DNA of 64,000 bases from contig NC_018514.1 in the NCBI RefSeq assembly GCF_000292915.1, positions 62,001-126,000 on the forward strand, read 5' to 3'. The notes beneath the pieces were generated by a model that saw nothing but the letters and a program-made list of their open reading frames with translations, made no database searches and had not been told where the DNA came from. This DNA comes from Burkholderia cepacia GG4 (lineage in GTDB: Bacteria; Pseudomonadota; Gammaproteobacteria; Burkholderiales; Burkholderiaceae). The position numbers were made by a program, and so were the translations under genes. Numbering within the stretch: position 1 is the first letter of the stretch; every line of letters starts with the position of its first letter. Positions 9,978 through 41,423 of the stretch are shown here, one piece after another.

Positions 9978-9980
9978 CAC

Positions 9981-24212: not shown

Positions 24213-25355
24213 ATGACGTCTCCTGTCCTGAACGGCCTGCGCATCGGTATCACGATCGGACTGCGCACTCCCGACGAAAGCCTGTGGATCAACGGCATCA
24301 AGCAGAATGCGCTGTTCCTCGCGAAGCTGCTGATGGCGTCGCCGCACGGCTACCGCGTGACGCTGGTCAACACGACCGACGTGCCGCTCACCGATACGCT
24401 GCCGTGGGATCGCAACGTGTACGACACGCGCGCGTTCGCCGACATGAAGGATGCGCTCGACGTCGTGATCGAGCTCGGCGGGCAGATCGACGGCGCGCAG
24501 ACGGCCTACCTGAAGGCGCGCGGCGTGAAGATCGTCAGCTATTGCTGCGGCGTCGAGTACATCAACGCGATGGAAGCGATGCTGTTCGGCCGCCGGCTGT
24601 GGGATTCGCTGTTCATCAACCGCGGCTACGACGAGGTGTGGGCGATTCCGCAGATCGCGCCGTCGTCGCTACCGTTCCTGCAGTCGCTGCGCCGCTGCCC
24701 GGGGCGTGTCGTGCCGTTCGTGTGGGATCCGATGTTCCTGACCGCGCGCGCGCAATCGCTGCCCGAGCACGGCGAATACCGGCCGCGCAGCGAGCCGGGC
24801 AAGCGGCTCACGGTGATGGAGCCGAACCACAACGTCGTGAAGTTCTGCGTGTACCCGATGCTGATCATCGACGAAGCGTATCGGCGCGATCCCGATGCGA
24901 TCTGCTTCACGCACGTGACGAACGCCGATCGCCTCGCGCACGACAGCCCCGAATTCGTGATGCTGATGAACTACCTGGACATCGTGCGCGCGGGCAAGGC
25001 GAGCTTCGTCGGGCGCTTCGACACGCCGCTGTTCCTGGCAGACCTGACCGACGTCGTCGTGTCCCATCAATGGTCGAATCCGCTCAACTACTTCTATTTC
25101 GACGTGTGCTGGCAGGGCTATCCGCTCGTGCACAACGCGAGCCTCGCGCCCGATCTCGGCTACTACTATCCGGACAACGACGTGCAGAAGGGCGCGGATG
25201 CGCTGCTGCACGTGCTGCACACGCACGACGACGACTGGGAAGGGTACACGCGGCGCCAGCGCGAGATCCTCGGCCGCTATACGTCCGCGAACCCCGCGCT
25301 CGTCGCCGAATACGACACGTTGCTCGCGAACCTGGTCGGTGCGACGGCCGCGTGA
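24213..25355 (+). CDS. DUF2827 family protein (copy 1), predicted glycosyltransferase-like
   Basis: A 380-residue soluble protein of the Burkholderia-type DUF2827 family, function not established. Landmarks shared with three other proteins in this window are an N-terminal 'SLWINGIKQN' motif, a central 'TVMEPNHNVVKFCVYPMLI' and a C-terminal 'VVSHQWSNPLNYFYFD' followed by 'YPLVHN' and 'LGYYYPDN'. The Rossmann-like start ('LRIGITIGLRT') and the C-terminal pattern recall the two-domain GT-B fold, which I infer to mean a sugar transferase. This copy is the most diverged (HQWSN instead of HHWEN) and alone on the plus strand, with its own terminator. It lies about 16 kb from the adhesin start. Confidence 0.75.
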   Translation: MTSPVLNGLRIGITIGLRTPDESLWINGIKQNALFLAKLLMASPHGYRVTLVNTTDVPLTDTLPWDRNVYDTRAFADMKDALDVVIELGGQIDGAQTAYLKARGVKIVSYCCGVEYINAMEAMLFGRRLWDSLFINRGYDEVWAIPQIAPSSLPFLQSLRRCPGRVVPFVWDPMFLTARAQSLPEHGEYRPRSEPGKRLTVMEPNHNVVKFCVYPMLIIDEAYRRDPDAICFTHVTNADRLAHDSPEFVMLMNYLDIVRAGKASFVGRFDTPLFLADLTDVVVSHQWSNPLNYFYFDVCWQGYPLVHNASLAPDLGYYYPDNDVQKGADALLHVLHTHDDDWEGYTRRQREILGRYTSANPALVAEYDTLLANLVGATAA

Positions 25356-25408
25356 TGCCATCCGGGTTGTCCCGGGTTAATGTCTGAAGAATTGCTGCCG
25401 CAAAAAAG

Positions 25409-25439
25409 AAACCGTCGAGCCGGGGAGATTCGACGGTTT
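25409..25439. terminator. Bidirectional terminator after DUF2827 copy 1
   Basis: AAACCGTCGA and TCGACGGTTT form a 10-bp stem with an 11-base loop. Runs follow on both sides (A-rich CAAAAAAG to the left, TTTT to the right), so it can end transcription on the plus strand and act from the minus strand too. Confidence 0.75.
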
Positions 25440-26082
25440 TGAAGGCACGAAATTGACGGCTCCGAGGGAAGTCCGTCGAAAATCATTTTAGAGGTTAACA
25501 AGCTGGAAAGATTGTTAAACATCTTGTAATCGATAAATGTCATATAATTCAGCTCGATATTTTGGATTTGATATTGATCGATTGTGTTTCAAGTATTCGC
25601 AATATCGTTTGAAACGGGAAAATTGAGTGCCGTGATGATCGAATGGCCGATGGCGCCGGCTGGCGCTGTGATCCGCAGGTCGTATCGACGGGGTCCGGCA
25701 GCGGTTGCGGGCATGGTTTCATGGGCGCCAATTCATCATATAAAATGGCGGGCACCCGATTTTTGAAACACGCGTCGCGGTAAATCGATTTGCGCCAAAG
25801 TGTTCCGGGAAGGCCGGAAGATGACGCAGATTGAAATTCGTCGGCGGTTTTGTGTAACCTGTCGCACCGATTTCGTGATGCGTGTGTGGTGTATTTTCCG
25901 TGTTTGAATATCGTTGACAATATCGGATTTGACGGCGCGCCGAAATGAAAAGTACGCTCCCGGAAAAGATCGAAACAAGAGGATGGGCCGGGTAAGCGGT
26001 GGAGCGTGTCGTGGTCGGCTCGCTCCGCATGTATCGTGAGCGCGGGCCGTCGTCGGCGGCCCGACATTTGCCGGAGCGCCGG
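25440..26082. other. Intergenic, partly AT-rich region without a supported gene
   Basis: From about 25460 to 25970 the base composition is distinctly lower in GC than the flanks. It contains short imperfect repeats (for example TTTCAA-N16-TTGAAA near 25588-25616). No convincing gene or RNA structure was seen. It likely holds the promoter of the EAL-domain gene. Confidence 0.5.
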
Positions 26083-26886
26083 ATGGATGCGGTCGAACCT
26101 CGCCTGGAGGCGAACAGGGTAGCGAATCGGGACGAGATCGATCTCGTGTTCGGCGCCCGCGACGATCACCCCGACCTTGCGTCGGTACGCAGTTTCGTTG
26201 AAAGCCGGCTCGGGTTTGCGCGCGAGCCGGTATGCCGGGCCGACCTGTCGGGCGGCGTGCTGTATCACGAATGCCTCGCGCGGTTGCGCTGGGGATCGGA
26301 CGATGCATTGCTGCCGCTTGCGTTCCTGCCGCGCCTCGAGTCGCTCGGGCTGATGCGCTGGTTCGACCGGCTTGTGGTCGGCCGGACGATCGACGAGCTG
26401 CGCGCCGATCCGAAGGCGGTGTACGGCTGCAACGTGGCGGCGGCGAGCGCGGTTGTCGACGACGCGTGGCTCGCAATCTTCCGGCGGCTAGAGCGCGAGC
26501 CGTCGGTCGCCGCGCGGCTGGTCGTCGAGATTACCGAGACGGGGCCGCTGAACCCCGTCGCGGGGCGGTCGTTCGTGAATCGGCTCCGCCAGGCCGGGTG
26601 CCGTGTCGCGATCGACGATTTCGGCGTTGGCTTCAGCGCGCTGAACAGCCTGGTGGTCGGCAACCCCGATATCGTGAAGCTCGACAGGTCGGTCCTGTCG
26701 CTGATCAAGCGCAACGCGATCGGGCGCTACCAGTTTCGCCGGCTGATCGCGTTCGCGCACGAAAGCGCGCGGCACGTCGTCGTCGAGGGCGTGGAGAGCG
26801 AGATCGACCGGCAGATCATTGTGGATTCCGGCGTCGCGTGGGCGCAGGGCATCCGCTTTTCGTGGCGGTCGCCGGCCGCCGCATGA
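26083..26886 (+). CDS. Stand-alone EAL-domain protein, probable c-di-GMP phosphodiesterase
   Basis: About 267 residues that are almost entirely one EAL domain, with no GGDEF, PAS or membrane segment. Key catalytic positions are recognisable though divergent: 'HECLARL' (for EALLR), 'CNVAAAS' (Asn), 'VEITETG' (Glu), 'AIDDFGVGFS' (Asp-Asp, with Val where Thr is usual), 'DIVKLDRS' (Lys), 'VVEGVES' (Glu) and 'AQGIRFS' (Gln). Activity is therefore plausible. The ATG at 26083 has GGAG seven bases upstream; a GTG at 25999 would add 28 residues of no clear homology. Low c-di-GMP generally reduces adhesion, so a link with the neighbouring adhesin cluster is attractive but inferred. Confidence 0.8.
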   Translation: MDAVEPRLEANRVANRDEIDLVFGARDDHPDLASVRSFVESRLGFAREPVCRADLSGGVLYHECLARLRWGSDDALLPLAFLPRLESLGLMRWFDRLVVGRTIDELRADPKAVYGCNVAAASAVVDDAWLAIFRRLEREPSVAARLVVEITETGPLNPVAGRSFVNRLRQAGCRVAIDDFGVGFSALNSLVVGNPDIVKLDRSVLSLIKRNAIGRYQFRRLIAFAHESARHVVVEGVESEIDRQIIVDSGVAWAQGIRFSWRSPAAA

Positions 26887-26947
26887 TGCCGCGGCGCGTG
26901 CGTTGCGCGCAGGTATCGGGTAACGACGGATCGCAAAGGGGGCGGGC

Positions 26948-27388
26948 ATGGCGGCGACGAAGGGGAAGGCCGGGCACGGAACCGACACGCAGGCGGCCGA
27001 TGCGCGCGCGCTCGTCGCGCTCGCCGAGCTTGCCGACATGCTGTGCCAGCTCGGTGCCGAAGCAATCGAAGCAATCGAAGCAACCGAGGCGCCGGTCGAC
27101 GTCGCGCCGTATCTCGACGGCCTCAAGGCCGTCGAGCAGCATATTCACCGGATGAATCCGCTCGATGCCGACGGCCGCGAGCGCGCGGCGCGGCACTATT
27201 ACGCCGGTGTGTTCGCAGGCGCTTGCGGCGACGATTCGGCGATCGCGCGCGGCGTAGCGGGCAGCCTGGCGCGGCAGGCCGGCGGTGTCAGCCATGCGGC
27301 GGCCCGCTGTTTCGCGACGCTCGCGCGCATCGGCCGGCGACATGGCCGTGTGTTTGCCGCGCGGCGCGGCCATCGCGTGCCGGCTTAG
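26948..27388 (+). CDS. Hypothetical protein, 146 residues
   Basis: Not recognised. A soluble, Ala-rich, mainly helical protein with no signal peptide or membrane segment. A tract of 9-bp tandem repeats near 27058-27086 encodes 'EAIEAIEATEA', which could vary in copy number. It starts 61 bp after the EAL-domain gene on the same strand with an AAAGGGGG site, so the two may be co-transcribed. The C-terminus is Arg-rich ('IGRRHGRVFAARRGHR'). Confidence 0.55.
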   Translation: MAATKGKAGHGTDTQAADARALVALAELADMLCQLGAEAIEAIEATEAPVDVAPYLDGLKAVEQHIHRMNPLDADGRERAARHYYAGVFAGACGDDSAIARGVAGSLARQAGGVSHAAARCFATLARIGRRHGRVFAARRGHRVPA

Positions 27389-27430
27389 CGCGGGTTCGCG
27401 CGTCACGTCCGAGTCATGCCCGAGTCATGC

Positions 27431-27699
27431 CCGTGTCACGCAGATAACGGGCTTCGACGTCCGGCAACGTAATCGACAATCCTTGCCGGAACCGCCGAGC
27501 ACGCACGTCAGCGTGCAGTCGACCGCACGATCACCGGCAAGGATCGCGTCGAACTCGCCCTGGATATGCGCCAGCCCGTCTTGATCAGCGCCCCGGCCTG
27601 CCGCGCGTAGAGCCGGTTAATGACGAACGGGCCGTGGATCGAGTCGATCTCGACGAAGTGGCGAACGGCCGGGTTCCTGGACGGCGTATGCGAAGGAAG
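27431..27699 (-). pseudogene. Possible gene remnant in the gap before the DUF2827 operon end
   Basis: The 311-bp gap 27389-27699 has no intact gene. Read on the minus strand it gives a protein-like stretch ('HFVEIDSIHGPFVINRLYAR') that continues in a different frame ('GEFDAILAGDRAVDCTL'). This looks like a frameshifted coding remnant. I cannot name the parent; chance GC-rich reading is the alternative. An 11-bp tandem duplication (CGAGTCATGCC) lies at its outer edge near 27410-27430. Confidence 0.22.
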
Positions 27700-28836
27700 T
27701 CAGCCGAGCAGGCGGTCCGCGAACAGGTGTCGGATCTGTTCGGAATACGTACGGATGTTGTGCTCGGCGAGCGTGTCGACCTGCTGCAGGCAGCGGCGGG
27801 CCGCGGCCGCGTAATCGTCGAGCCGTGCGTCGTGCGTCTGCGCGGCGGTCGCGATCGCGCGCGCCGCATCGAAGATCTCGAAGTCAGGGTAGTAATAGCC
27901 GACGTCGCGCAGGAACGGCGAGTTGTGCACGAGCGGGTAGTTGCCGTACAGCGCGTCGTACAGCAGATAGTTCAGGCCGTTTTCCCAGTGGTGCGACACG
28001 ACGATGTCGGTGTGATGCGCGGCCCACGCGACGAACGGCGCGCGCACGTCGGCCGTCGCCTTGCCGTCGCGCACCATCTCGAGCCCGAGCGCGAGGTGCT
28101 TGAAGGCGACGTTTTCCTTCTTGTCGAACGTGTTGGTCATGTACACGTGCTCGACGAGTTCCGGGTGTTCGACGTAGCACGCATTCACAGCGAGCATCGG
28201 CACGATCGAGCTCTTCACGACGTTCAGGTTCGGCTCGAAGAACGCGATGCGCTTGGCGGGGCTGTGATTGCGGTAGCCGAAGCGCGCCTTCAGCTCGGGA
28301 TCGGCGTCGAGGCTGCGTTCGATGAAGTACGGCGACCAGATGTGCGGCAGCTCGATCACCGGCGCGCGATAGACGGCCTGGAAGTAGGCCGCGCACGTGT
28401 GCATGTGCTGCGGGTTGGTCCAGATCTCGTCGAACTGCACGCGGTTCGGGTTCGGCCGCCAGTTGTTCTTCTCGAAGGTGATCGTCTCGACCGCGATCAC
28501 GTAGTCGTTGCCGAAGCGGTACGACACGCACTTGCCGCCACGCCGGCGCACGGCGTCCGTGTGCGACGGGTCGATGAACGCGTTCATCTCGATCAGCAGG
28601 TCGGTCTGGTGGACGATCGCCGACAGCGGCCGCAGCGCGTCGCCGAACGCGTCCATCATCAGCGCCTGCGGGTAGTCGGTGATGCCGTCGTCGTGCGCGA
28701 GCCACACCTCGCCGATCAGCGGCGAGCTTTTCAGCAGCATGTACAGGTACACGCAATGCTGGTTCGCGCCGTTGTACCAGATCGACTGCGTCGCGTCGCG
28801 CTGCACGTTCATCGTAATCGCGACATTGATTTTCAT
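27700..28836 (-). CDS. DUF2827 family protein (copy 2), predicted glycosyltransferase-like
   Basis: A 378-residue protein, last gene of the four-gene minus-strand operon. It begins 'MKINVAITMNVQR' and carries the family landmarks 'SIWYNGANQH', 'AFFEPNLNVVKSSIVPML', 'VVSHHWENGLNYLLYD', 'YPLVHNS' and 'VGYYYPDF'. The conserved HHWEN-x2-NY segment and following Tyr-Pro-Leu-hydrophobic-His-Asn form the most invariant part of all four copies and are probably the active or donor-binding site. A GGAG site lies just upstream of the ATG. No signal peptide: it should act in the cytoplasm, before export of any protein substrate. Function inferred, not established. Confidence 0.78.
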   Translation of the reverse strand: MKINVAITMNVQRDATQSIWYNGANQHCVYLYMLLKSSPLIGEVWLAHDDGITDYPQALMMDAFGDALRPLSAIVHQTDLLIEMNAFIDPSHTDAVRRRGGKCVSYRFGNDYVIAVETITFEKNNWRPNPNRVQFDEIWTNPQHMHTCAAYFQAVYRAPVIELPHIWSPYFIERSLDADPELKARFGYRNHSPAKRIAFFEPNLNVVKSSIVPMLAVNACYVEHPELVEHVYMTNTFDKKENVAFKHLALGLEMVRDGKATADVRAPFVAWAAHHTDIVVSHHWENGLNYLLYDALYGNYPLVHNSPFLRDVGYYYPDFEIFDAARAIATAAQTHDARLDDYAAAARRCLQQVDTLAEHNIRTYSEQIRHLFADRLLG

Positions 28837-28864
28837 CGGCGGCTCCGGGCAGGTGGTGCGCGGC

Positions 28865-29341
28865 TTACGGCGCGTAGTTCTGCGACTGGCGCGGCACGTA
28901 GCCGGTCAGGTGCCAGCGGCCGTCGTCGTCGAGGCGGAAGCTCAGCTTTTCGTACACGGTCGCACCGCTCGTCAGCGTCGTCGCGTAGTCGAGGTTCGCG
29001 TAAAGGCCGTCGGGCATCGCCGATGCGTTCTGGTAGCGAATGCGCGTGATCTGCGCCCAGCCGCGATGGCTGACCGTGCCGACCGACTGGCGTGCGCGCT
29101 GCATGTCCGATGCGAACTGGTCCGGCTTGATACGCACCTTCACGAACGCGGCGGAATCGGCCCATACCGCGCCGTACTGGCCGGCGTCGAGTTGCTTGAA
29201 CACCGCGTCGGCGTCGCGCAGCAGCGTGTCCGCCGACTCGTCGCCGGATTGCGCGTGCGCACCGATCGCCAGCGACGCAATGGTGCAGCCGATCAGCCAT
29301 TTCAGCGATTTCGCCCGGGAGGGATTCAGCAGTGCGTTCAT
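28865..29341 (-). CDS. DUF4019 family exported protein
   Basis: A 158-residue protein with an N-terminal signal peptide ('LIGCTIASLAIGAHA') and a DUF4019-type domain: 'FKQLDAGQYGAVWADSAAFVKVRI', 'ARQSVGTVSHRGWAQITRIRYQ', and a closing beta part ('VYEKLSFRLDDDGRWHLTGYV'). The fold is thought to be SnoaL/cystatin-like; its role is unknown. It lies between DUF2827 copies 3 and 2 with gaps of only 25 and 28 bp, so it is co-expressed with them and may assist the same envelope process from the periplasm. The ATG at 29341 gives a clean signal peptide; the longer reading to 29476 overlaps copy 3 in another frame. Confidence 0.8.
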   Translation of the reverse strand: MNALLNPSRAKSLKWLIGCTIASLAIGAHAQSGDESADTLLRDADAVFKQLDAGQYGAVWADSAAFVKVRIKPDQFASDMQRARQSVGTVSHRGWAQITRIRYQNASAMPDGLYANLDYATTLTSGATVYEKLSFRLDDDGRWHLTGYVPRQSQNYAP

Positions 29342-29366
29342 GTCGGAGTCCGGGGAGGGCGGCGCG

Positions 29367-30521
29367 TCATGCGTCGCGATACAGTGACGCGATCGCGTTG
29401 GAATACGCGGCGACGTTGTCGGGGTTGTAGATGCTGACCGAGTCGAGCACATGCTTCGATTGCGCGCGGTACGCATCGAGGTTCGCGTCGTGCTGGTCGA
29501 ACGCTTGCAGCAGCGCGCGGCCGCCGGCCTGGCAGTCGAAGTCCGGATAGAAATACCCGGCCTTGCCGAGGAACGGCGAGTTGTGGATCAGCGGATAGTC
29601 GCCGTACAGCAGTTCGTAGTACAGGTAGTTCTGCGCGTTTTCCCATGTGTGCGACACCACCGCGTCGCCGTAGGCCGCCATGAACTCGTAGACGGCGTAG
29701 CGGCTTTCGAACGTCGTGATCCCGTGGTTCACGATGTCGAGGCTCTTCGCGAAGTGGACGAACGTCGCGTGTTCCTTCAGGTGCAGCGTGTTGCACACGC
29801 GCACGAATTCGATGAACCCGGGCTTCGCGCGATAGGCCTCCTCGGTCACCAGCATCGGGATGATGCTGGTCTTCACCATGCAGATGTTCGGCTCGAACAT
29901 CGTCACGCGCCAGCGCGGCTTGCCGGGCCGATAGCCGAACGACAAGCCGGCGCCGAGCGTCGCGCGGGCCTTGTCGAACAGCATCGGGTGCCAGATGTGC
30001 GGGACGATCGTCACCGGCGCGCGCAGGCCCGTCTCGTAATAGTGCAGGCACGAGCGCTCGAATTCCGGAATCGTCCACACCGCGTCGTACGGCGCGCCCG
30101 AGAACAGGAAGCCCGACGGCTTGTTGAACATCGCGCGTTCGATGTCGATCACGTAGTCGTTGCCGACCCGCATCGTAACGACCTTGCCGCCGCGGTCGCG
30201 GAACGCGCGCAGGTAGTCCGCGCCGAACTGCGCGCTCATTTCGATCAGCACGTCGCAGCGCTGCAGCGCTTCGTCCATCGACAGCAGCGGCACGTCCCAT
30301 TCGCCGAGCATCATCTGCGGATCGGCGATCTGTTCGCCGCCGTTCACCATCACGGCTTCCGCGACGAGCGGCGACTGGCGCAGCAGCAGGATCAGCAGCA
30401 GGCAGTTCTGGAAGATCCCGTTTTCCCACAGCGACTGGCCGGTGCCGCGTACGTACAGCGACACGCCGACGACGAGACGCTTGCCGTCGCCGGGCGCTTG
30501 ACGGGCATTGGAGTCCGACAT
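29367..30521 (-). CDS. DUF2827 family protein (copy 3), predicted glycosyltransferase-like
   Basis: A 384-residue paralogue. Landmarks: 'SLWENGIFQNCLLLILLL', 'MFEPNICMVKTSIIPML', 'VVSHTWENAQNYLYYELLYG', 'YPLIHNSPFLGKAGYFYPDF'. It follows copy 4 by 14 bp and has its own CCGGAG ribosome site. It is closer to copy 4 than to copies 1 and 2 ('FGYRPGKPRWRVTMFEPN' versus 'FGYRPGRRPWRLATLEPN'). An apparent 668-residue open frame extending to 31373 arises from reading copy 4 out of frame and is not a fusion protein. Confidence 0.78.
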   Translation of the reverse strand: MSDSNARQAPGDGKRLVVGVSLYVRGTGQSLWENGIFQNCLLLILLLRQSPLVAEAVMVNGGEQIADPQMMLGEWDVPLLSMDEALQRCDVLIEMSAQFGADYLRAFRDRGGKVVTMRVGNDYVIDIERAMFNKPSGFLFSGAPYDAVWTIPEFERSCLHYYETGLRAPVTIVPHIWHPMLFDKARATLGAGLSFGYRPGKPRWRVTMFEPNICMVKTSIIPMLVTEEAYRAKPGFIEFVRVCNTLHLKEHATFVHFAKSLDIVNHGITTFESRYAVYEFMAAYGDAVVSHTWENAQNYLYYELLYGDYPLIHNSPFLGKAGYFYPDFDCQAGGRALLQAFDQHDANLDAYRAQSKHVLDSVSIYNPDNVAAYSNAIASLYRDA

Positions 30522-30535
30522 GCGTATGCTCCGGT

Positions 30536-31681
30536 TCAGGCGACCAGGCGCGCGACGAACGCGTCCAGGTTCGCGGGGTTGTCGATCGAGACCGACTGCA
30601 GCAGCCGGCCGGCCTTCGCGCGATAGTCGTCGAGCCGCTCGTCGTGATGCTGCCACGCATCGAACAACGCGCGGCCGCCCGCGACCGAATCGAAATCCGG
30701 GTAGTAGTAGCCGGCGTCGCCGAGCAGCATCGAGTTGTGGATCAGCGGATAGCCGCCGTACAGCACGTCGTAGTACAGGTAGTTCTGCGGATTTTCCCAG
30801 TGGTGCGACACGACGGCGTCCGCATGGCGCGCCATGAAGCCCGGCAGGTCGATGCGCGGCTCGAAGGTCGCCTTGTGCTGGCGCACGAGGTCGAGGCTGT
30901 TCGCGAAGTGCACGAAGGTCGGATGTGCCTTCATGTGCATCGAGTTGACGACGAACAGGTGCTGCACCGCGTCCGGGTGCGCGCGATAGAACTCGTCGCA
31001 CGCGAGCATCGGGTAATGGCAGGACTTCACCACCGAGATGTTCGGTTCGAGCGTCGCGAGACGCCACGGGCGGCGGCCGGGCCGATAGCCGAACGTTACG
31101 CCTTCGCTCGCCAGTGCGGCGATGCGGCGATCGAGGAAGTACGGCGACCACAGATGCGGAATCGTGTAGACCGGCGCGCGCGTGAGCGTGCGCAGCAACG
31201 GCACGTCGATCGTGTGCGACTTCTCGAGGACCCACACTTCGTCGAACTGCGTGCCGTTGAAGACGTGTCCCGACGGCTTCTCGAAGATCGGTGTTTCGGC
31301 CAGACCGCTGTAGGTGTGGCCGACGTAGCAGGCGACGAGCTTCGTGCCGAGCGCCTTCACGTGCCTGAGCCATTCGACCGGCAACTGGGCGCCCATCTCG
31401 ATCACGACGTCGAGGTCGTGCGTGACGTCGGCGGGCTTCACGAGCGGTACGTCGAGGCCGTCGAGTTCGAGGCCGGTGGGCAGCGCGTTCGCGTCGCCGC
31501 CGTTCAGGAAGTAGACCGGGCCGACGCGGTCCGAGCGCTTGAGCATCATCGCGAGGTACGCGATGTTCTGGTGAATGCCGTTTTCCCAGATCGCCTGGCC
31601 GTCCCGTGCAAACAGCGAGATGCCGACGGCCGGCCGTTGCTTGCGGGTGCCGCCCGAGGCGGCTTGATTGATGTCCGTCAC
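30536..31681 (-). CDS. DUF2827 family protein (copy 4), predicted glycosyltransferase-like
   Basis: A 381-residue protein, first gene of the operon 31681 to 27700. Landmarks: 'AIWENGIHQNIAYLAMML', 'LEPNISVVKSCHYPML', 'VVSHHWENPQNYLYYDVLYGG', 'YPLIHNSMLLGDAGYYYPDF'. The GTG at 31681 follows a GAGGAAA site; upstream residues of the longer reading are Arg-rich and not coding-like. With copies 2 and 3 it makes three family members in one transcript downstream of the Ser/Thr-rich adhesin and its OmpA-like lipoprotein. Confidence 0.78.
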   Translation of the reverse strand: MTDINQAASGGTRKQRPAVGISLFARDGQAIWENGIHQNIAYLAMMLKRSDRVGPVYFLNGGDANALPTGLELDGLDVPLVKPADVTHDLDVVIEMGAQLPVEWLRHVKALGTKLVACYVGHTYSGLAETPIFEKPSGHVFNGTQFDEVWVLEKSHTIDVPLLRTLTRAPVYTIPHLWSPYFLDRRIAALASEGVTFGYRPGRRPWRLATLEPNISVVKSCHYPMLACDEFYRAHPDAVQHLFVVNSMHMKAHPTFVHFANSLDLVRQHKATFEPRIDLPGFMARHADAVVSHHWENPQNYLYYDVLYGGYPLIHNSMLLGDAGYYYPDFDSVAGGRALFDAWQHHDERLDDYRAKAGRLLQSVSIDNPANLDAFVARLVA

Positions 31682-32086
31682 CGGTTGGTTTCCTCTGCGG
31701 CGTCGTGTGTCCGGCCGTGGCGTCGAGCGCCTGGCCTCGAAACGGCGCGCCGTGGATTGTCGTGGTTGCATTTGCGCCGGCGCGTGCCGGAAAGCGAGTC
31801 GGGCGACGCGGATCGCGGGGCGGCGGCCGGATCCCGGTGTGTCGTCGCGCGGGACCGGCACGGCGCGGGACGCGGGCGGAACGCGCAGGCAGCTGTCTGC
31901 GGCGATTGTGGCACGGAAGTCGCCGGTCTGTGGCGGGACATGACGAACTTTGACATAGCCACCGGTGACGGGGCCGAGGCCGCCGCGAAGCGGTGTCTGG
32001 AGAGGCCCGGCGGTCTGCCGGCGAGGCTCCGGTCCCGTGCCGGATCGGGCCGTCGAGTGCGGGCGCGGGCCGCGCCGGCCGGCTGC
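31682..32086. other. Intergenic region upstream of the DUF2827 operon
   Basis: 405 bp with no supported gene. It separates the OmpA-like lipoprotein stop from the first DUF2827 gene and is long enough to hold an independent promoter. I found no convincing operator or terminator here. Confidence 0.5.
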
Positions 32087-32752: not shown

Positions 32753-32783
32753 CGTTACGTCCTCAAAGCTTGGGTTGACTGAA

Positions 32784-32808
32784 GCCCGCCGCGGGGGGCG
32801 CGGCGGGC
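32784..32808 (-). terminator. Strong hairpin between the adhesin and the OmpA-like lipoprotein
   Basis: GCCCGCCGCG and CGCGGCGGGC form a perfect 10-bp stem with a five-base loop. The T content after it on the minus strand is modest, so it may be an attenuator that lowers downstream expression rather than a full stop. Confidence 0.45.
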
Positions 32809-32876
32809 TCGTCCTGCCGTCGTGGCCGCCGTGTGCCGGCCGGCTGGCGCGCCGGGCGGCGTGGCGGCGTGACGGG

Positions 32877-35800
32877 TTACTTCCACTGGTACAGCATGCC
32901 GGCGCCGATCACCTTCTGACCGCCGCTGAAGCCGCCGTTGATCGATGCCTTCAGGTTCTCCGTGATGCGCGCCTGCATGTTGACCGCCATCGCCTTCTGG
33001 CCGAGGAAGGTCGACGTGCCGACACCCATCCCGAAGTTGGCGTCGCGGTCGAGCTGCGGGATCGACGCCATCGCGCCGACGGCCGCGATACCCTGCTTCG
33101 CCATCTGGTCGGTCTGCTGCAGCTGCGAGCCCAGCGAGTTGATCTGCCCTTGCTGGTTCGACAGTGCCGTTGACAGCGTCGTCTGCACCTGCGTCAGCTG
33201 GTTCACGTTCACCGCGTCGGTGCCTTGCGTACCCGGCGCGACGTTCGTGATCTGGCGCTGCTGCGTGTCGCTGCCGACCGACACCACGTTCGAACGGCCG
33301 CCGTCATTCGAATTCGCGCCGATCGCCACCGAGTTCGAGCCGGCGGTCACGGTCGGGCGGTCAGTGCCGGTGCCGTTCATGTCCGCCGCGATGGCGTTGT
33401 TGTTCGCCGAGCGCGCCTGGCTCTGGTTGATCGTCGTCGTCAGTTGCGACACCTGGTCACCGAGGTTCGTCACGCCGGTCGACAACGAAGCCACCGTGCT
33501 GTTCGTCGAGCTCAGGCCGGTCGACAGCGAGCCGATGCCGGTCGAGGTCGACGTGGACAGAGACGTGAGGTTGCTGTTGGTCGAGCTGAGGCCCGTCGAC
33601 AGCGAGTTGATCGCCGTTGAGGTCGACGTGGACAGAGACGTGAGGTTGCTGTTGGTCGAGCTGAGACCCGTGGACAGCGAACCGATGCCGGTCGACAGCG
33701 ACGAGATGTTCGACGCGGTTGACGTCGACAGGCTGGTGATCGCCTGGTTCGTCGCGTTGAGCTGGCTGCCGTTGATCGCGTCCGTGCTGGTGGCCGACAC
33801 CTGGCCTGCGGCGACGTTCGTGATCTGGCGTTCCTGCCCCGGCTGGCCGACGCTGACCACGCCCACCGGCGAACTGCCCGCGAAGAAGTACGTGACGCCG
33901 CCGATCGTGGCGCTCGAGGTGCCGACTGCCGTACCCGTGACCGAGTTCGCGCCGAGGGCGACCGAGTTCGCGACGTTGGCCGTGGCGTTCGTGCCGAAGG
34001 CGAGCGCATCCGCGGCGGTTGCCGATGCACCCGAGCCGTAGGCCTGGGCACCGGTCGCACTCGCGACCGCCTTGTTGCCGAGGGCGATCGTGTTGTCTGC
34101 GGTGGCCTGGTTCGAGCTGCCGAGGGCGAGCGCGCTGTCGCCGGTTGCGGTGTTGGCGTTGCCGAGCGCCACTGCGCCGCTGCCGGTCGCCGTGTCGTTT
34201 GCGCCCATTGCCACGGCGCCGGTGCCCGTTGCGACGCTCGGATCGCCGATCGCGACCGCGCCGTCGCCGCTCGCGGTGTTGCCGGAGCCGATCGACACCG
34301 CCTTGCCGCCGGTGGCCGATGCGTTCTGGCCGATTGCAACCGCGCCGGTCGATGCTGCGTTCGAGCCGTCGCCGACCGCGACGCTGCTGGCGCCTGCTGC
34401 GCTGGCGTTCACGCCGGCTGCGAGTGAGTTGATGCCGGTCGCGCCGTTGTTGGCGTAGTTGCCTTGCTGCGTACCGTTGTCGTTGACGCTGTAGTAGTGC
34501 GTCTTCGCAGCTTCGATCGCCGTCGAGGTCGAGGTGGACAGCGACGTGATCGAGCTGGTGGCCGACGACAGACCGGTCGAGGTCGAGGTGGACAGCGACA
34601 GGATCGTGCTGGTGGCCGTCGACAGACCAGTCGAGGTCGATGTCGACAACGAGTTGATCGAGCTGGTGGCCGACGACAGACCGGTCGAGGTCGACGTGGA
34701 CAGCGAGCTGATCGAGCTGGTGGCCGATGAGAGGCCGGTCGACGTGGAGGTCGACAGCGAAGCGACCGAACTGTCGGTCGAGCTCAGGCCCGTGGACAAC
34801 GACGTGACGCTGCTCGCGGTCGACGTGGACAGCGATGTGAGCGAGCTGTTGGTCGAGGACAGGCCGGTGGACAGCGAACCGATCGAGCTGGTGGCCGACG
34901 ACAGGCCCGTGGAGGTCGAAGTCGACAGCGACGAGATCGAGCTGGTTGCCGACGAGAGGCCAGTCGACGTGGAGGTCGACAGCGAAGCGACGGAGCTATC
35001 GGTTGAGCTCAAACCGGTGGACAGCGAGGTGATGCCGGTCGAGGTCGATGTGGACAGCGAACTGATCGAGCTGGTTGACGATGAGAGGCCAGTCGACGTG
35101 GACGTCGACAGCGAAGCGACCGAACTGTCGGTCGAGCTGAGGCCGGTGGACAACGAGTTGATACCGGTCGAGGTCGAAGTCGACAGCGAACTGATCGAGC
35201 TGGTGGCTGACGAGAGGCCAGTCGACGTGGAAGTCGACAGCGAAGCGACGGAGCTATCGGTCGAGCTGAGGCCGGTGGACAACGAGTTGATACCGGTCGA
35301 GGTCGACGTGGACAGCGAGCTGATCGAGCTGGTTGCCGACGAGAGACCCGTCGACGTGGAAGTCGAGAGCGACATCACCGTGCTGTCGGTCGAGCTCAGG
35401 CCGGTGGACAGCGAGTTGATGCCGGTCGAAGTCGAGGTGGACAGCGAGCTGATCGAACTGGTTGCCGATGACAGGCCAGTCGACGTGGAAGTCGACAGCG
35501 AAGCGACGGAGCTATCGGTTGAACTCAGGCCGGTCGACAGCGAATTGATGCCAGTCGAGGTCGAGGTGGACAGCGAGTTGATGCCGGTCGAGGTCGAAGT
35601 CGACAGCGAGCTGATCGAGCTGGTGGCCGACGAGAGGCCAGTCGACGTGGAAGTCGACAGCGACGTCACCGAACTATCGGTCGAGCTGAGGCCGGTGGAC
35701 AGCGAGTTGATCCCGGTCGAGGTCGAGGTGGACAGCGACGTGATCGAGCTGGTTGCCGACGAGAGCCCCGTCGACGTGGAGGTCGACAGCGACGTCACCG

Positions 35801-38800
35801 TGCTATCGGTCGAGCTGAGGCCCGTCGACAACGAGTTGATACCGGTCGAGGTCGACGTGGAGAGCGACGAGATCGAGCTGGTCGCCGATGACAGGCCGGT
35901 CGATGCGGAGGTCGAGAGCGAAGCGACCGAACTGTCGGTCGAGCTGAGGCCGGTCGACAGCGAGTTGATACCCGTCGAAGTCGACGTGGAGAGCGACGAG
36001 ATCGAGCTGGTTGCCGACGAGAGGCCAGTCGACGTGGAGGTCGAAAGCGATGTCACCGTGCTGTCGGTCGAGCTGAGGCCGGTGGACAGCGAGTTGATGC
36101 CGGTCGAAGTCGAGGTGGACAGCGAGCTGATCGAACTGGTTGCCGATGACAGGCCGGTCGACGTGGAAGTCGACAGGGAAGCCACCGAACTATCGGTCGA
36201 GCTGAGGCCCGTCGACAGCGAGTTAATACCGCTCGAGGTCGAGGTGGACAGTGAGCTGATCGAGCTGGTTGCCGACGAGAGGCCAGTCGACGTGGAGGTC
36301 GACAGCGACGTCACCGAACTATCGGTCGAGCTGAGGCCGGTCGACAGCGAGTTGATACCGGTCGAGGTCGACGTGGACAGCGACGTGATCGAGCTGGTTG
36401 CCGACGAGAGGCCAGTCGACGTGGAAGTCGACAGCGAAGCGACGGAGCTATCGGTCGAGCTCAGGCCGGTGGACAACGAGTTGATACCGGTCGAGGTTGA
36501 TGTGGATAGCGAAATGATCGAACTGGTTGCCGACGAGAGGCCAGTCGACGTGGAAGTCGACAGCGAAGCGACGGAGCTATCGGTCGAGCTGAGGCCCGTC
36601 GACAGCGAGTTGATACCGGTCGAGGTCGACGTGGACAGTGAGCTGATCGAGCTGGTTGACGATGAGAGGCCAGTCGACGTGGACGTCGACAGCGAAGCGA
36701 CCGAACTGTCGGTCGAACTGAGGCCGGTCGACAGCGAGTTGATGCCGGTCGAGGTCGAAGTCGACAGCGAGCTGATTGAGCTGGTTGCTGACGAGAGGCC
36801 AGTCGACGTGGAAGTCGACAGCGAAGCGACGGAGCTATCGGTCGAGCTGAGGCCGGTGGACAACGAGTTGATACCGGTCGAGGTCGACGTGGACAGCGAG
36901 CTGATCGAGCTGGTTGCCGACGAGAGACCCGTCGACGTGGAAGTCGAGAGCGACATCACCGTGCTGTCGGTCGAGCTCAGGCCGGTGGACAGCGAGCTGA
37001 TCGAACTGGTTGCCGATGACAGGCCAGTCGACGTGGACGTCGACAGCGAAGCGACGGAGCTATCGGTTGAACTCAGGCCGGTCGACAGCGAATTGATGCC
37101 AGTCGAGGTCGAGGTGGACAGCGAGTTGATGCCGGTCGAGGTCGAAGTCGACAGCGAGCTGATCGAGCTGGTGGCCGACGACAGGCCGGTCGACGTGGAA
37201 GTCGACAGCGAAGCGACGGAGCTATCGGTCGAGCTGAGGCCGGTGGACAACGAGTTGATACCGGTCGAGGTCGACGTGGAGAGCGACGAGATCGAGCTGG
37301 TTGCCGACGAGAGGCCAGTCGACGTGGAGGTCGACAGCGACGTCACCGAACTATCGGTCGAGCTGAGGCCCGTCGACAGCGAGTTGATACCGGTCGAGGT
37401 CGACGTGGAGAGCGACGTGATCGAGCTGGTTGCCGACGAGAGGCCAGTCGACGTGGAGGTCGAGAGCGACGTCACCGAACTATCGGTCGAGCTGAGGCCG
37501 GTCGACAGCGAGTTGATACCGGTCGAGGTCGACGTGGACAGCGAGCTAATCGAGCTGTTGGCCGACGAAAGGCCGGTCGACGTGGAGGTCGACAGCGAAG
37601 CGACCGAACTGTCGGTCGAGCTGAGGCCCGTCGACAGCGAGTTGATACCGGTCGAAGTCGACGTGGACAGCGAGGAGATCGAGCTATTTGCCGACGACAA
37701 ACCCGTCGACGTGGAAGTCGAGAGGGAAGCGACGGAGCTGTTCGTCGAGCTAAGGCCAGTCGAAGTGGACGTGGACAGCGACGAGATTGAGCTATTCGCT
37801 GACGACAGACCGGTCGATGTGGACGACGAAAGCGAAGCAACCGAGCTGTTGGTCGAGCTCAGGCCCGTGGACAGCGAGTTGATGCCGGTCGAAGTGGACG
37901 TGGACAGCGACGAAATCGAGCTGGTTGCCGACGACAGACCGGTCGACGTCGAAGTCGACAGCGAAGCGACCGAACTATCGGTGGAACTCAGGCCCGTCGA
38001 CAACGAAGTGATGCCGGTCGACAGCGACGCGATTGCGCTACTGGACGACGACACCGTCGTCGACAGCGAATCCACGACCGAATTGGTCGCGAAGAGCTGG
38101 GAGCCGTTGATCGCGTCGGTGCTGGTGGCCGTGATTTGCCCCGCCGCGACGTTGGTGATCTGGCGCGAGGTGTTCGTGCTTGCGTCGCCGACACTGACGA
38201 CGCTGCTCGGATTGCCGCCCGCGAATGTGCTCGTCACGCCGCCGACGGTACCGGTCGGCGTAGGGTTCGGGGTTCCGGTGACGGAGCCGCTGCCGAGCGC
38301 GACATCGCCGGTGTTGTTGGCGACCGCATTCGGACCGATCGCGACCGAGTCGGTGCCGAGTGCCTTGCTGTCCGTGCCCGTCGAATTTGCGTGGAAGTAC
38401 TTGATGCCCTGGTTGTTGATGCTGTCGATTGCCGAGCCAACGCTGTTGGCGGTCGACGTCGTGCCGTTCGAGTTGTACGTGGTGTACGACGGAGCGGAGA
38501 CCGTACCGGTTGCCGGGTTGTAGCTGGCACCGCCGCCGAGTGCTGCGGCGGTGCTGGTGCCGAGATTGTCGGTCTTGGTCGCGACCGTGCTGAGGCCGGT
38601 GGACAGCGAACCGATCGAGCTGTTAGCCGACGAGAGGCCGGTCGACGTGGACGTGGACAACGAAAGGACGGTGCTGTTGGTCGAGCTGAGGCCGGTAGAC
38701 AGCGAACCGATCGAACTATTGGCCGACGAGAGACCGGTCGACGTAGACGACGAAAGCGACGCAACCGAGCTATTGGTCGAACTCAGTCCCGTGGACAGCG

Positions 38801-41423
38801 AGTTGATACCCGTCGACGTCGAGGTGGAGAGCGACGTGATCGAGCTGGTGGCGGAGGAGAGACCGGTCGACGTGGACGACGAAAGCGAACTAACCGAGCT
38901 ATTGGTCGAACTCAGTCCCGTGGACAGCGAGTTGATACCGGTCGAAGTCGACGTGGACAACGACGTGATCGAGCTATTCGCCGACGAGAGACCGGTCGAC
39001 GTGGAAGACGAAAGCGAAGTAACCGAGCTGTTGGTCGCACTCAGGCCCGTCGACAGTGAGTTGATGCCAGTCGAGGTCGAGGTGGAGAGCGACGTGATCG
39101 AGCTGTTAGCCGACGACAGGCCCGTCGACGTGGACGACGAAAGCGACGTCACCGAACTATTGGTCGAACTCAGTCCCGTGGACAGCGAGTTGATACCCGT
39201 CGAGGTCGAGGTGGACAACGACGTGATCGAGCTGTTTGCCGACGAGAGACCGGTCGACGTGGAAGACGAAAGCGAAGTAACCGAGCTGTTGGTCGCACTC
39301 AGGCCGGTGGACAGCGAGTTGATACCGGTCGAGGTCGAGGTGGAGAGCGACGTGATCGAGCTGTTAGCCGAAGACAGACCCGTCGAAGTCGAGGTGGACA
39401 ACGACGTGATCGAGCTGTTTGCCGACGAGAGACCGGTCGACGTGGACGACGAAAGCGAAGTAACCGAGCTGTTGGTCGAGCTCAGGCCCGTCGACAGCGA
39501 GTTGATGCCCGTCGAAGTCGAGGTGGACAGCGACGCGATCGAGCTATTAGCCGACGAGAGACCGGTCGACGTAGACGACGAAAGCGACGTCACGGAGCTG
39601 TTTGTCGAGCTCAGGCCCGTCGACAGCGAGTTGATGCCCGTCGAAGTCGAGGTCGACAGCGACGTGATCGAGCTGTTGGCCGAGGAGAGACCGGTCGACG
39701 TGGAAGACGAGAGCGAAGTAACCGAGCTGTTGGTCGCACTCAGGCCCGTCGACAGCGAGTTGATGCCAGTCGAAGTCGAGGTGGAGAGCGACGTGATTGA
39801 ACTGTTAGCAGATGACAGACCCGTCGAAGTCGAGGTGGACAACGACGTGATCGAGCTATTCGTCGACGACAGACCGGTCGATGTGGACGACGAAAGCGAC
39901 GTCACCGAGCTGTTGGTCGAGCTGAGGCCGGTCGACAGCGAGTTGATACCGGTCGAGGTCGAGGTGGAAAGCGACGTGATCGAGCTGTTCGCCGACGAGA
40001 GACCCGTCGACGTAGACGACGAAAGCGACGTAACCGAGCTGTTGGTCGCACTCAGGCCGGTCGACAGCGAGTTGATGCCCGTCGAAGTCGAGGTGGAAAG
40101 CGACGTGATCGAGCTGTTCGCCGACGAGAGACCGGTCGACGTGGAAGACGAAAGCGAAGTTAACGAACTCTTGGTCGCGCTCAGGCCCGTCGACAGGGAG
40201 CTGATACCCGTCGAAGTCGAGGTGGAGAGCGACGCAACCGAGCTGTTGGTCGAACTCAGGCCGGTGGACAGCGAGTTGATGCCGGTTGAAGCGGACGTGG
40301 ACAGCGACGTGATCGAGCTATTCGCCGACGAGAGCCCCGTCGACGTGGAGGACGACAGCGAAGTAACTGCGCTGTTGGTTGAGCTCAGACCCGTCGAAAG
40401 CGAGCTGATACCGGTCGAGGTCGACGTGGACAGCGACGTGATCGCGCTATTCGCCGACGAAAGCCCCGTCGACGCCGACGACGACAGGCTGCTGATCGCG
40501 CTCGTCGTCACGCTCATGCCGGTGCTGAGCTGGGACACGGTGACGGCGTCCTGCGGTGCCGACCCGTCGGCGACGTTCGTGATGCGACGCAGCGCCGTCG
40601 AACTGCCGACCGACACTTCCGACAGCGGCGCGGTGCTGCCCGTCAGGTAGCCCGTGCCCGTCGGTGCTGCCGTGCCGGTTACGCTGCCCGCGCCGATTGC
40701 GACGCTGGATGCATAGTTGGCCGTGCCGCCGAGCGCCAGCGCATTGGTGCCCGTTGCCGTCGCGCCGTTGCCGATGGCGGATGCGCCAGAGCCGGCTGCG
40801 GTGGCAGCCGAACCGAGCGCCGTACCGTTGGTACCTGCCGCCGTGACGGTTGCGTTCGCGCCGATCGCGATACCCGAGGTGGTCGCCGCGTTGACGTTCG
40901 AGTACCGGCCTACCGCGATCGCGTTGGTGCCTGCCGCTACGGCGCCACCCAGCCCGGAACTGTTGCCTCCGCCGAGTGCGACCGAACTGCTGCCCGATGC
41001 CGTGGTGTCGTTGCCGACCGCCGTAGCGCCGATATTGAGCGCATTCGAGCCGGAGCCGATGCCGATCGCGCTCGACCCGGTCGCCACGGAACGCTGGCCG
41101 AACGCCTGTGAATAGCTGCCCGATGCGGTCGCGTTTGCGCCGATCGCGATCGACGTTGCGCCGCTGGCCGTCGTCGTGCTGCCCGAGTTGCCGCCGATGG
41201 CGATCGCTTGAGCGCCCGAGGCCACGACGGAGCCACCAGCGCCGCCCGTGCTGTATTGCGCGTGCGCGACGTTGCCGACGGTCGCCCCCGCTACGAGCGC
41301 AACGGTTGCCACGGCCTTTACGACGGCGGACTTGTTCGGCTTGCCCCGTGCCGAATCGTGTTCGGATGCCGCGACCCAGGCGCCAAGGGCTTCGTTCCAG
41401 ATCGAGCGGTACGTGCGGTTCAT
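32877..41423 (-). CDS. Giant trimeric autotransporter adhesin (YadA-like, type Vc)
   Basis: A 2848-residue surface adhesin. It has an ESPR extended signal (MNRTYRSIWNEALGAWV..., cleavage near residue 55). Head 1 (about 60-290) has YadA-type 'SxAIGxxA' repeats. A neck ('RRITNVADGS') precedes stalk 1 (about 300-945). Head and neck 2 span about 950-1130, and stalk 2 about 1130-2300. Head 3 spans about 2300-2545 and a short stalk 3 follows. The C-terminal anchor is 'FGMGVGTSTFLGQKAMAV...GMLYQWK'. Stalks are built of a 43-residue unit of 18+11+14 residues, about 65% Ser+Thr and nearly without charge, fitting a trimeric coiled coil with 7- and 11-residue periods. GGAGG precedes the ATG. Ligand unknown; adhesion or biofilm role by family. 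Confidence 0.95.
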   Translation of the reverse strand: MNRTYRSIWNEALGAWVAASEHDSARGKPNKSAVVKAVATVALVAGATVGNVAHAQYSTGGAGGSVVASGAQAIAIGGNSGSTTTASGATSIAIGANATASGSYSQAFGQRSVATGSSAIGIGSGSNALNIGATAVGNDTTASGSSSVALGGGNSSGLGGAVAAGTNAIAVGRYSNVNAATTSGIAIGANATVTAAGTNGTALGSAATAAGSGASAIGNGATATGTNALALGGTANYASSVAIGAGSVTGTAAPTGTGYLTGSTAPLSEVSVGSSTALRRITNVADGSAPQDAVTVSQLSTGMSVTTSAISSLSSSASTGLSSANSAITSLSTSTSTGISSLSTGLSSTNSAVTSLSSSTSTGLSSANSSITSLSTSASTGINSLSTGLSSTNSSVASLSTSTSTGISSLSTGLSATKSSLTSLSSSTSTGLSSANSSITSLSTSTSTGINSLSTGLSATNSSVTSLSSSTSTGLSSANSSITSLSTSTSTGINSLSTGLSSTNSSVTSLSSSTSTGLSSTNSSITSLSTSTSTGLSSANSSITSLSTSTSTGINSLSTGLSATNSSVTSLSSSTSTGLSSANSSITSLSTSTSTGINSLSTGLSSTNSSVTSLSSSTSTGLSSANSSIASLSTSTSTGINSLSTGLSSTNSSVTSLSSSTSTGLSSANSSITSLSTSTSTGLSSANSSITSLSTSTSTGINSLSTGLSATNSSVTSLSSSTSTGLSSANSSITSLSTSTSTGINSLSTGLSSTNSSVTSLSSSTSTGLSSANSSITSLSTSTSTGINSLSTGLSATNSSVTSLSSSTSTGLSSANSSITSLSTSTSTGINSLSTGLSSTNSSVSSLSSSTSTGLSSATSSITSLSTSTSTGINSLSTGLSSTNSSVASLSSSTSTGLSSANSSIGSLSTGLSSTNSTVLSLSTSTSTGLSSANSSIGSLSTGLSTVATKTDNLGTSTAAALGGGASYNPATGTVSAPSYTTYNSNGTTSTANSVGSAIDSINNQGIKYFHANSTGTDSKALGTDSVAIGPNAVANNTGDVALGSGSVTGTPNPTPTGTVGGVTSTFAGGNPSSVVSVGDASTNTSRQITNVAAGQITATSTDAINGSQLFATNSVVDSLSTTVSSSSSAIASLSTGITSLSTGLSSTDSSVASLSTSTSTGLSSATSSISSLSTSTSTGINSLSTGLSSTNSSVASLSSSTSTGLSSANSSISSLSTSTSTGLSSTNSSVASLSTSTSTGLSSANSSISSLSTSTSTGINSLSTGLSSTDSSVASLSTSTSTGLSSANSSISSLSTSTSTGINSLSTGLSSTDSSVTSLSTSTSTGLSSATSSITSLSTSTSTGINSLSTGLSSTDSSVTSLSTSTSTGLSSATSSISSLSTSTSTGINSLSTGLSSTDSSVASLSTSTSTGLSSATSSISSLSTSTSTGINSLSTSTSTGINSLSTGLSSTDSSVASLSTSTSTGLSSATSSISSLSTGLSSTDSTVMSLSTSTSTGLSSATSSISSLSTSTSTGINSLSTGLSSTDSSVASLSTSTSTGLSSATSSISSLSTSTSTGINSLSTGLSSTDSSVASLSTSTSTGLSSSTSSISSLSTSTSTGINSLSTGLSSTDSSVASLSTSTSTGLSSATSSIISLSTSTSTGINSLSTGLSSTDSSVASLSTSTSTGLSSATSSITSLSTSTSTGINSLSTGLSSTDSSVTSLSTSTSTGLSSATSSISSLSTSTSSGINSLSTGLSSTDSSVASLSTSTSTGLSSATSSISSLSTSTSTGINSLSTGLSSTDSTVTSLSTSTSTGLSSATSSISSLSTSTSTGINSLSTGLSSTDSSVASLSTSASTGLSSATSSISSLSTSTSTGINSLSTGLSSTDSTVTSLSTSTSTGLSSATSSITSLSTSTSTGINSLSTGLSSTDSSVTSLSTSTSTGLSSATSSISSLSTSTSTGINSLSTSTSTGINSLSTGLSSTDSSVASLSTSTSTGLSSATSSISSLSTSTSTGINSLSTGLSSTDSTVMSLSTSTSTGLSSATSSISSLSTSTSTGINSLSTGLSSTDSSVASLSTSTSTGLSSATSSISSLSTSTSTGINSLSTGLSSTDSSVASLSTSTSTGLSSSTSSISSLSTSTSTGITSLSTGLSSTDSSVASLSTSTSTGLSSATSSISSLSTSTSTGLSSATSSIGSLSTGLSSTNSSLTSLSTSTASSVTSLSTGLSSTDSSVASLSTSTSTGLSSATSSISSLSTSTSTGLSSATSSINSLSTSTSTGLSTATSTILSLSTSTSTGLSSATSSITSLSTSTSTAIEAAKTHYYSVNDNGTQQGNYANNGATGINSLAAGVNASAAGASSVAVGDGSNAASTGAVAIGQNASATGGKAVSIGSGNTASGDGAVAIGDPSVATGTGAVAMGANDTATGSGAVALGNANTATGDSALALGSSNQATADNTIALGNKAVASATGAQAYGSGASATAADALAFGTNATANVANSVALGANSVTGTAVGTSSATIGGVTYFFAGSSPVGVVSVGQPGQERQITNVAAGQVSATSTDAINGSQLNATNQAITSLSTSTASNISSLSTGIGSLSTGLSSTNSNLTSLSTSTSTAINSLSTGLSSTNSNLTSLSTSTSTGIGSLSTGLSSTNSTVASLSTGVTNLGDQVSQLTTTINQSQARSANNNAIAADMNGTGTDRPTVTAGSNSVAIGANSNDGGRSNVVSVGSDTQQRQITNVAPGTQGTDAVNVNQLTQVQTTLSTALSNQQGQINSLGSQLQQTDQMAKQGIAAVGAMASIPQLDRDANFGMGVGTSTFLGQKAMAVNMQARITENLKASINGGFSGGQKVIGAGMLYQWK
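34520..38030 (-). repeat. 129-bp tandem array encoding stalk 2 (Asp-type units)
   Basis: Tandem units spaced 129 bp (e.g. matching GTCGAC blocks at 35221 and 35350), roughly 27 copies with a few shortened or duplicated sub-units. Units here encode SLSTGLSSTDSSVA and SLSTSTSTGLSSATSSIS, so they carry Asp and Ala-Thr where stalk 1 has Asn. The opposite strand is open for 1329 codons through this array purely because of the repeat. Confidence 0.85.
38590..40500 (-). repeat. 129-bp tandem array encoding stalk 1 (Asn-type units)
   Basis: Same 129-bp period (e.g. GTCGAC at 38995 and 39124), roughly 15 copies. Units encode SLSTGLSSTNSSVTS and GLSSANSSI, an Asn-rich variant distinct from stalk 2. 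Near-identical long repeats make both arrays candidates for copy-number change by recombination and for assembly collapse. Confidence 0.85.

Follow-up and report, generated by a model that had tools for sequence, protein, structure and literature searches.

In the serine-rich-repeat and SdgA/SdgB systems of Gram-positive bacteria, dedicated cytoplasmic GT-B enzymes (GtfA/GtfB and accessory Gtfs in the former) are encoded beside the Ser-rich adhesin. Here we describe a 64,000-nucleotide window of the Burkholderia cepacia GG4 genome (positions 62001-126000 of G000:C2; the genome is 6.47 Mb in two contigs) in which four DUF2827 genes lie near the gene for a giant trimeric autotransporter adhesin (TAA) with a Ser/Thr-rich stalk. 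We propose, at a probability of roughly 0.77, that DUF2827 proteins are soluble GT-B glycosyltransferases (GTs) that add sugars to Ser and Thr of the adjoining TAA stalk in the cytoplasm before Sec export. The likeness to the Gram-positive systems lies in GT genes placed beside a Ser-rich adhesin, as seen here in 33 of 36 DUF2827 clusters. The differences are that DUF2827 lacks any sequence relation to those enzymes at the Pfam level, and that the candidate substrate is a Gram-negative TAA with a YadA anchor. Serine-rich-repeat systems are also marked by a GtfA-family sequence, accessory SecA2/SecY2, and a cell-wall anchor, none of which gave a Pfam match among the 20 open reading frames (ORFs) scanned around the locus.

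Dedicated glycosylation is also described for Gram-negative autotransporters. BAHT heptosyltransferases (AAH and TibC) O-glycosylate the passenger of their cognate autotransporter, AIDA-I or TibA (PMC8498110, excerpts). AIDA-I and TibA are type Va autotransporters, however, and the four DUF2827 proteins match no NCBIfam family at E≤0.1, heptosyltransferases included. NCBIfam does include a BAHT model. Enzymes of the HMW1C/NGT type carry out N-linked transfer at N-X-S/T. For the TAAs Knh and EmaA, N-glucosylation of the HMW1C type is required for adhesion, according to excerpts of PMC9592894 and PMC8498110. HMW1C is N-linked and of another protein family, whereas the stalk in the window is enriched in Ser/Thr. 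PglL oligosaccharyltransferases are multi-pass membrane proteins. The PglL/O-glycosylation cluster (OGC) system of the same genus resembles ours in that it O-glycosylates exported proteins on Ser (PMC8423747, excerpts); it differs in acting in the periplasm, through an oligosaccharyltransferase, on many proteins, while DUF2827 proteins are predicted to be soluble and are tied to one locus. The DUF2827 system would work like the serine-rich-repeat and BAHT systems but is a member of neither.

The closest adhesin in print is the Burkholderia cenocepacia TAA BCAM2418, which is like the window TAA in its described size (2775 residues) and Ser/Thr-enriched repeats; the excerpted text of PMC7142374 calls these repeats possibly related to O-glycosylation and names no enzyme, so that O-glycosylation of Burkholderia TAA repeats is already in print as speculation. 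A surfome study detected only residues 205-282 of the 2775 (PMC11054960, excerpts). We do not count this coverage as evidence of modification, because trypsin would miss a Lys/Arg-poor stalk anyway: residues 282-2672 of the window TAA hold 10 Lys/Arg. The excerpts of PMC6127331 hold nothing on TAA glycosylation. In the open-licence literature searched, no title or abstract opening reports a DUF2827-TAA system, and we found no described role for DUF2827 (its sole mention is in a paper unrelated by title), in keeping with the original prediction, which named none.

The genes of the locus are as follows.

32877-41423, minus strand: TAA of 2848 residues with a Ser/Thr-rich stalk, the predicted substrate (ESPR, YadA_stalk, and YadA_anchor above cut-off; composition and 43-residue units)
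32087-32752, minus strand: OmpA-family lipoprotein of 221 residues, a probable peptidoglycan-binding companion (PF00691, 6e-22)
30536-31681, minus strand: DUF2827-a (PF10933, 523.8 bits; GTG start selected, ORF open from 31861)
29367-30521, minus strand: DUF2827-b (modelled, GT-B fold)
28865-29341, minus strand: DUF4019 protein of 158 residues, wedged between DUF2827-b and -c (PF13211, 8e-24)
27700-28836, minus strand: DUF2827-c (PF10933, 368.5 bits)
25999-26886, plus strand: EAL-domain protein between DUF2827-d and -c, probably outside the system (PF00563, 4e-38)
24213-25355, plus strand: DUF2827-d, on the strand opposite to a-c (modelled, GT-B fold)

All four paralogues that the original prediction placed near the TAA score 368-524 bits with the DUF2827 profile PF10933 (cut-off 25), and a genome-wide profile search found no fifth. 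The same kind of search found a single further YadA_anchor gene, far from this locus, whose product is 19% Ser/Thr (L203). On the minus strand the order is TAA, OmpA-family lipoprotein, DUF2827-a, DUF2827-b, DUF4019, and DUF2827-c, with intergenic gaps, by ORF coordinates, of 124, 405, 14, 25, and 28 bp. The spacing from a to c would fit the single operon of three DUF2827 genes that had been predicted, but that description needs amending in that the OmpA gene separates the TAA from a, and the DUF4019 gene separates b from c.

The window TAA carries the YadA anchor, YadA stalk, and extended signal peptide of a trimeric autotransporter. Ser makes up 33.0% and Thr 18.3% of its residues (51% combined), with Ser/Thr-rich stretches at residues 282-963, 1097-2323, and 2542-2672. 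The predicted 43-residue units with 28 Ser/Thr were recovered: 26 stalk units are exactly 43 residues long, each with 27-29 Ser/Thr. The stalk had been called nearly uncharged; charge is indeed low but not zero, with D/E/K/R at 3.2% across the whole protein. Tandem Repeats Finder reports a 129-bp tandem array in the gene (34905-40516), and since this array is long and imperfect, strains could differ in how many stalk units they have.

DUF2827 is widespread in the genus and closely linked to TAAs. PF10933 is found in 58 of 61 sampled genomes and YadA_anchor in 59; G046 and G055 lack both, G042 has three TAAs and no DUF2827, and G039 has a weak trace of each. Full listings from 23 near-complete genomes gave 147 anchors and 111 DUF2827 matches, the latter in 36 clusters. 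Thirty-three of these follow a same-strand anchor match, their start lying 39-1263 bp downstream of it, where random placement expects 0.083; among these 33, the G033 cluster is a match both short and remote. The three unlinked clusters are one short remnant with stops and two single genes. In 9 of the 23 genomes, a second full DUF2827 cluster lies beside another TAA. Across the order, DUF2827 occurs in 6 of 300 genomes and anchors in 29, with all 6 among the 29 and the two genes adjacent in 5 (the exception is G067). A draw across the phylum found DUF2827 in 6 of 398 genomes, two of them new: G710, with an anchor 98 bp away, and G691, with one 160 bp away. Among 80 named loci, which are the best 80 of 223 relatives and not representative of the whole family, the TAA is 5' on the same strand in 56, 3' in 4, divergent in 2, and not adjacent in 18; all 80 carry at least two DUF2827 matches. 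By DNA, the window operon is closest among them to Burkholderia sp. Bp9142 (L046, 92.8%) and Bp9143 (L040, 92.1%).

The linked TAAs are also distinct in composition. We compared the 33 linked anchor ORFs with a random sample of 60 from 110 unlinked ones (114 in all, less four below 300 residues). Median Ser+Thr was 0.466 in linked against 0.194 in unlinked TAAs (Mann-Whitney p 1.8e-12, a value that overstates the case because orthologous loci are not independent), and charged residues were 0.032 against 0.122. Ser/Thr reached at least 0.40 in 28/33 linked and 3/60 unlinked TAAs. Within genomes, the linked mean exceeded the sampled unlinked mean in all 23, and in 22 the minimum for linked TAAs exceeded the maximum for sampled unlinked ones, the exception being G047 with its 14 anchors. 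L152 (linked) and L207 (unlinked), read in the wrong frame, are in the 33-versus-60 counts and out of the within-genome and grouping comparisons; L250 and L276, also wrong-frame, were excluded.

The same bias is seen beyond the genus, where five linked TAAs have 0.33-0.43 Ser/Thr and 10 readable unlinked ones in three of those genomes have 0.09-0.24. (TAAs read numbered 6/7 in G067, 4/6 in G691, 4/5 in G710, with one unreadable, and 6/6 in G315.) In G691, which belongs to another order, the linked TAA has a Ser/Ala/Thr repeat unlike the Burkholderia repeat. Linked TAAs are alike in composition but not in the sequence of their repeats, which would be expected of a partner enzyme that requires hydroxyls. 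From genomes without DUF2827 we took 18 hand-picked, mostly long TAAs (14 of 23 genomes) and all three of G042; the 20 of these 21 that were readable have at most 0.273 Ser/Thr overall and at most 0.33 in any 200-residue window.

The predicted structures argue for a glycosyltransferase. Models were made for two of the four paralogues, b and d, and both are high-confidence GT-B folds, with two Rossmann domains and full-length superposition on known GT-B enzymes. BshA scores above the epimerases discussed below, at TM-scores of 0.55-0.64 in the Foldseek lists, and the GtfA and SdgB structures match as well. The fold comparison thus bears out the predicted GT-B likeness of DUF2827 for b and d, while a and c keep the same conserved residues. 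Hydropathy maxima over 19 residues are 0.8-1.9 in the four paralogues, unlike a PglL-type multi-pass membrane protein; the highest (b residues 41-59) spans a predicted helix and strand in the first Rossmann domain.

Conservation was read from 245 DUF2827 sequences, 4 from the window and 241 from named loci. E210, N212, K217, R274, H291, N298, H313, and N314 (b numbering) are 98-100% kept in each of the four paralogue clades. The N-domain positions 33, 121, 122, and 175, in contrast, vary between clades, 175 differing in d alone. (The clade tree excludes matches below about 330 residues; P0038, an apparently frame-shifted homologue, is in A1 and excluded from A2, A3, and A6.) In GT-B enzymes, donor binding falls to the C-terminal domain and acceptor binding to the N-terminal one. 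A constant C domain with a clade-variable N domain therefore suggests that all four paralogues are active enzymes that share a donor chemistry and differ in acceptor.

DUF2827 is also found joined to or among other GTs. Querying with the GT25 portion of a fusion protein retrieved 111 proteins, and precomputed labels assign DUF2827 together with Glyco_transf_25 to 11 of them; in all 7 of the 11 that were rescanned, both domains lie above cut-off at separate positions. In one fusion, P0251, DUF2827 is represented by its C-terminal half alone. P0293, P0301, and P0304 match DUF2827 remotely (58-72 bits), in series with GT10, GT25, and GT47/RXYLT1-type regions. At loci without a TAA, the neighbors include GT25 (L015), a GT34-like protein with methyltransferases (L026), and GT2 with FkbM (L020). 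The last of these has an RTX-repeat protein immediately upstream.

Taken together, the fold predicted for two paralogues, the conservation of C-domain residues, the GT fusions and clustering, the tight same-strand TAA linkage, and the Ser/Thr bias lead us to conclude that DUF2827 proteins very probably constitute a family of glycosyltransferases, whose probable targets are the Ser/Thr-rich stalks of TAAs. The original prediction had named a fold unlike any glycosyltransferase and a lack of association with TAAs as outcomes that would speak against it. Neither was found: the co-occurrence survey it had proposed placed 33/36 clusters next to a TAA, on its 3' side, the linked TAAs being mainly Ser/Thr-rich, and its central proposal, glycosylation of the stalk by DUF2827, is well supported.

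Several observations weigh against this conclusion. Besides the non-independence of orthologous loci noted above, the 32 readable linked TAAs reduce to two anchor groups and four head groups. Sequence comparison does not reach known GTs: matches to Pfam GT families, including PF00534 and PF13692, were found at E≤1 in 0/100 DUF2827 members, neither sequence nor profile searches of the PDB assigned a GT, and hhalign found no match to nine PF00534 (GT4) proteins of the same genome, a comparison of little weight given its small and ragged alignment. Sequence similarity does not place DUF2827 in CAZy GT4. An E-x7-E motif is typical of retaining GT4 enzymes; at its seeming position, judged by eye from conserved columns, DUF2827 has N295-x7-[DE]303, with N295 in place of the first E. 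At five of the 18 loci without an adjacent TAA the contig stops nearby, within about 1 kb in four and within 2.7 kb in L058; the rest are true exceptions, including six Collimonas loci with three DUF2827 genes. Finally, Ser/Thr is 0.30 or more in 10 of the 60 unlinked TAAs, and among ORFs called 8-10 kb either side of these ten, one at L218 alone matches the DUF2827 profile. Each of the ten comes from a genome that carries DUF2827 at some other site, so the enzymes might act in trans. By Pfam, one neighbor of each is OmpA in four cases and, once each, an EAL protein, a histidine kinase, a LysR regulator, a phage integrase, a phosphoesterase, and the DUF2827-like protein.

These exceptions bear on the view that DUF2827 GTs build a polysaccharide or lipid-linked glycan and that the TAA is a mere neighbor, not a substrate. 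It draws on the Collimonas loci and on the Hydromonas-like loci L017, L018, and L026, the last with DUF2827 among GT34-like and methyltransferase genes, but we consider it unlikely: TAA linkage is near general in the 23 genomes and in nine is repeated at a second TAA locus, with Ser/Thr-rich TAAs favored; G067, whose three DUF2827 genes lack an adjacent TAA as in Collimonas, encodes Ser/Thr-rich TAAs at other sites (two, at 0.52 and 0.42, among the 6 examined from its total of 7); and no flippase or polymerase gene was seen in the 20 ORFs scanned around the window locus. Less probable again is a non-transferase GT-B enzyme, for instance a UDP-sugar 2-epimerase making a precursor, which we regard as the most improbable of the alternatives. 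UDP-GlcNAc 2-epimerases share the GT-B fold and are among the Foldseek matches, yet within those lists their TM-scores (0.38-0.43) fall below those of BshA, although certain transferases score no higher; the fusion partners of DUF2827 are transferases, and two to four paralogues per locus suit transferases more than a single precursor step.

GtfB of serine-rich-repeat systems is a GT-fold co-factor, a precedent for a further view in which the general periplasmic PglL/OGC system glycosylates the stalk and DUF2827 does something else, such as assisting export as a chaperone whose fold is GT-like. The excerpts of PMC8423747 describe Burkholderia PglL as Ser-preferring and active genus-wide, which counts for this view and against ours. 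On the other side, the excerpts of the same paper place PglL sites mostly in disordered Ala- and Pro-rich regions, unlike this stalk, and the words "autotransporter" and "adhesin" are absent from the main texts of the Burkholderia glycoproteome papers PMC8423747 and PMC11237607. Ser/Thr-rich TAAs go with DUF2827, and the C-domain residues kept in all four clades mean that no paralogue looks decayed. We therefore hold this view to be improbable, if less so than the epimerase one.

Under the glycosyltransferase reading, DUF2827 would form its own family with a GT4-like architecture, catalyzing O-linked transfer to many stalk Ser/Thr side chains of the neighboring TAA in the cytoplasm, ahead of Sec export. 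The donor may be a nucleotide sugar; the closest structures suggest, by analogy, a UDP-hexose or UDP-HexNAc. The recurrent tandem pair a and b could act as a priming and extending core, to which c and d would add further sugars or sites. The likely benefit is a hydrated sheath that would stiffen and protect an almost uncharged coiled coil; the modification, its sugar, and this stabilizing role we infer. A bolder form of the proposal, which we still favor with somewhat less assurance, is that DUF2827 is a new protein O-glycosyltransferase family whose tandem pair and add-on paralogues build an oligosaccharide coat on Ser/Thr-rich TAA stalks, that this is the first dedicated locus-encoded O-glycosylation for TAAs, and that it is the reason such stalks can exist, none having been seen in the sampled genomes without DUF2827. 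The proposal offers a likely function and substrate for a family present in nearly all sampled genomes of the genus. If true, dedicated O-glycosylation of Ser-rich adhesins, known in Gram-positives, extends to Gram-negative TAAs, and stalk fragments produced in Escherichia coli would be chemically unlike the native protein.

Several features around DUF2827 loci deserve mention. The protein at L218:54-1232 (+), directly downstream of a Ser/Thr-rich TAA, is a 392-residue remote DUF2827 relative (E 1.7e-7, C-terminal part) and possibly represents a second, diverged enzyme family. P0293, P0301, and P0304 are single polypeptides of about 1130-1150 residues, one on a 433-kb contig, and may be of large-virus origin, in view of a viral structure match. 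DUF2827 genes recur without a TAA at L017, L018, and L026; at L026, several proteins of about 500 residues with similar C-termini lie beside DUF2827, the GT34-like protein, and the methyltransferases, and the region is perhaps a larger glycan cluster. At the Collimonas loci (L007-L009 and L012-L014), the three DUF2827 genes follow a protein of about 220-250 residues, which in L007 has no Pfam match; at L016, beside a divergent TAA, a C-terminus like that of this protein precedes DUF2827.

The OmpA-family gene precedes DUF2827 in 29 of the 80 named loci, all 29 from Burkholderia (phmmer). We rejected it as a specific DUF2827 partner because it also adjoins 4 Ser/Thr-rich TAAs without adjacent DUF2827, of 10 neighbors scanned. 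The DUF4019 gene recurs in many Burkholderia loci. Upstream of DUF2827-d lies an acyl-CoA dehydrogenase/carboxylase operon of the methylcrotonyl-CoA carboxylase type. Two ORFs were set aside: 26816-27406 (-), with no family match and codon-position base composition no better than antisense frames, and 29338-30660 (-), a wrong frame overlying DUF2827-b. Rfam gave no match within the window at gathering scores, and promoter- and terminator-like sites across 24000-43400 were not above chance. Elsewhere in the window, a low-GC island at 8000-10200 (47% versus about 67%) contains an ORF at 8259-9113 (-) with no family assigned and its partner gene at 9123-9818 (-), which encodes a small protein matching prokaryotic phospholipase A2 (PF09056) barely above cut-off.
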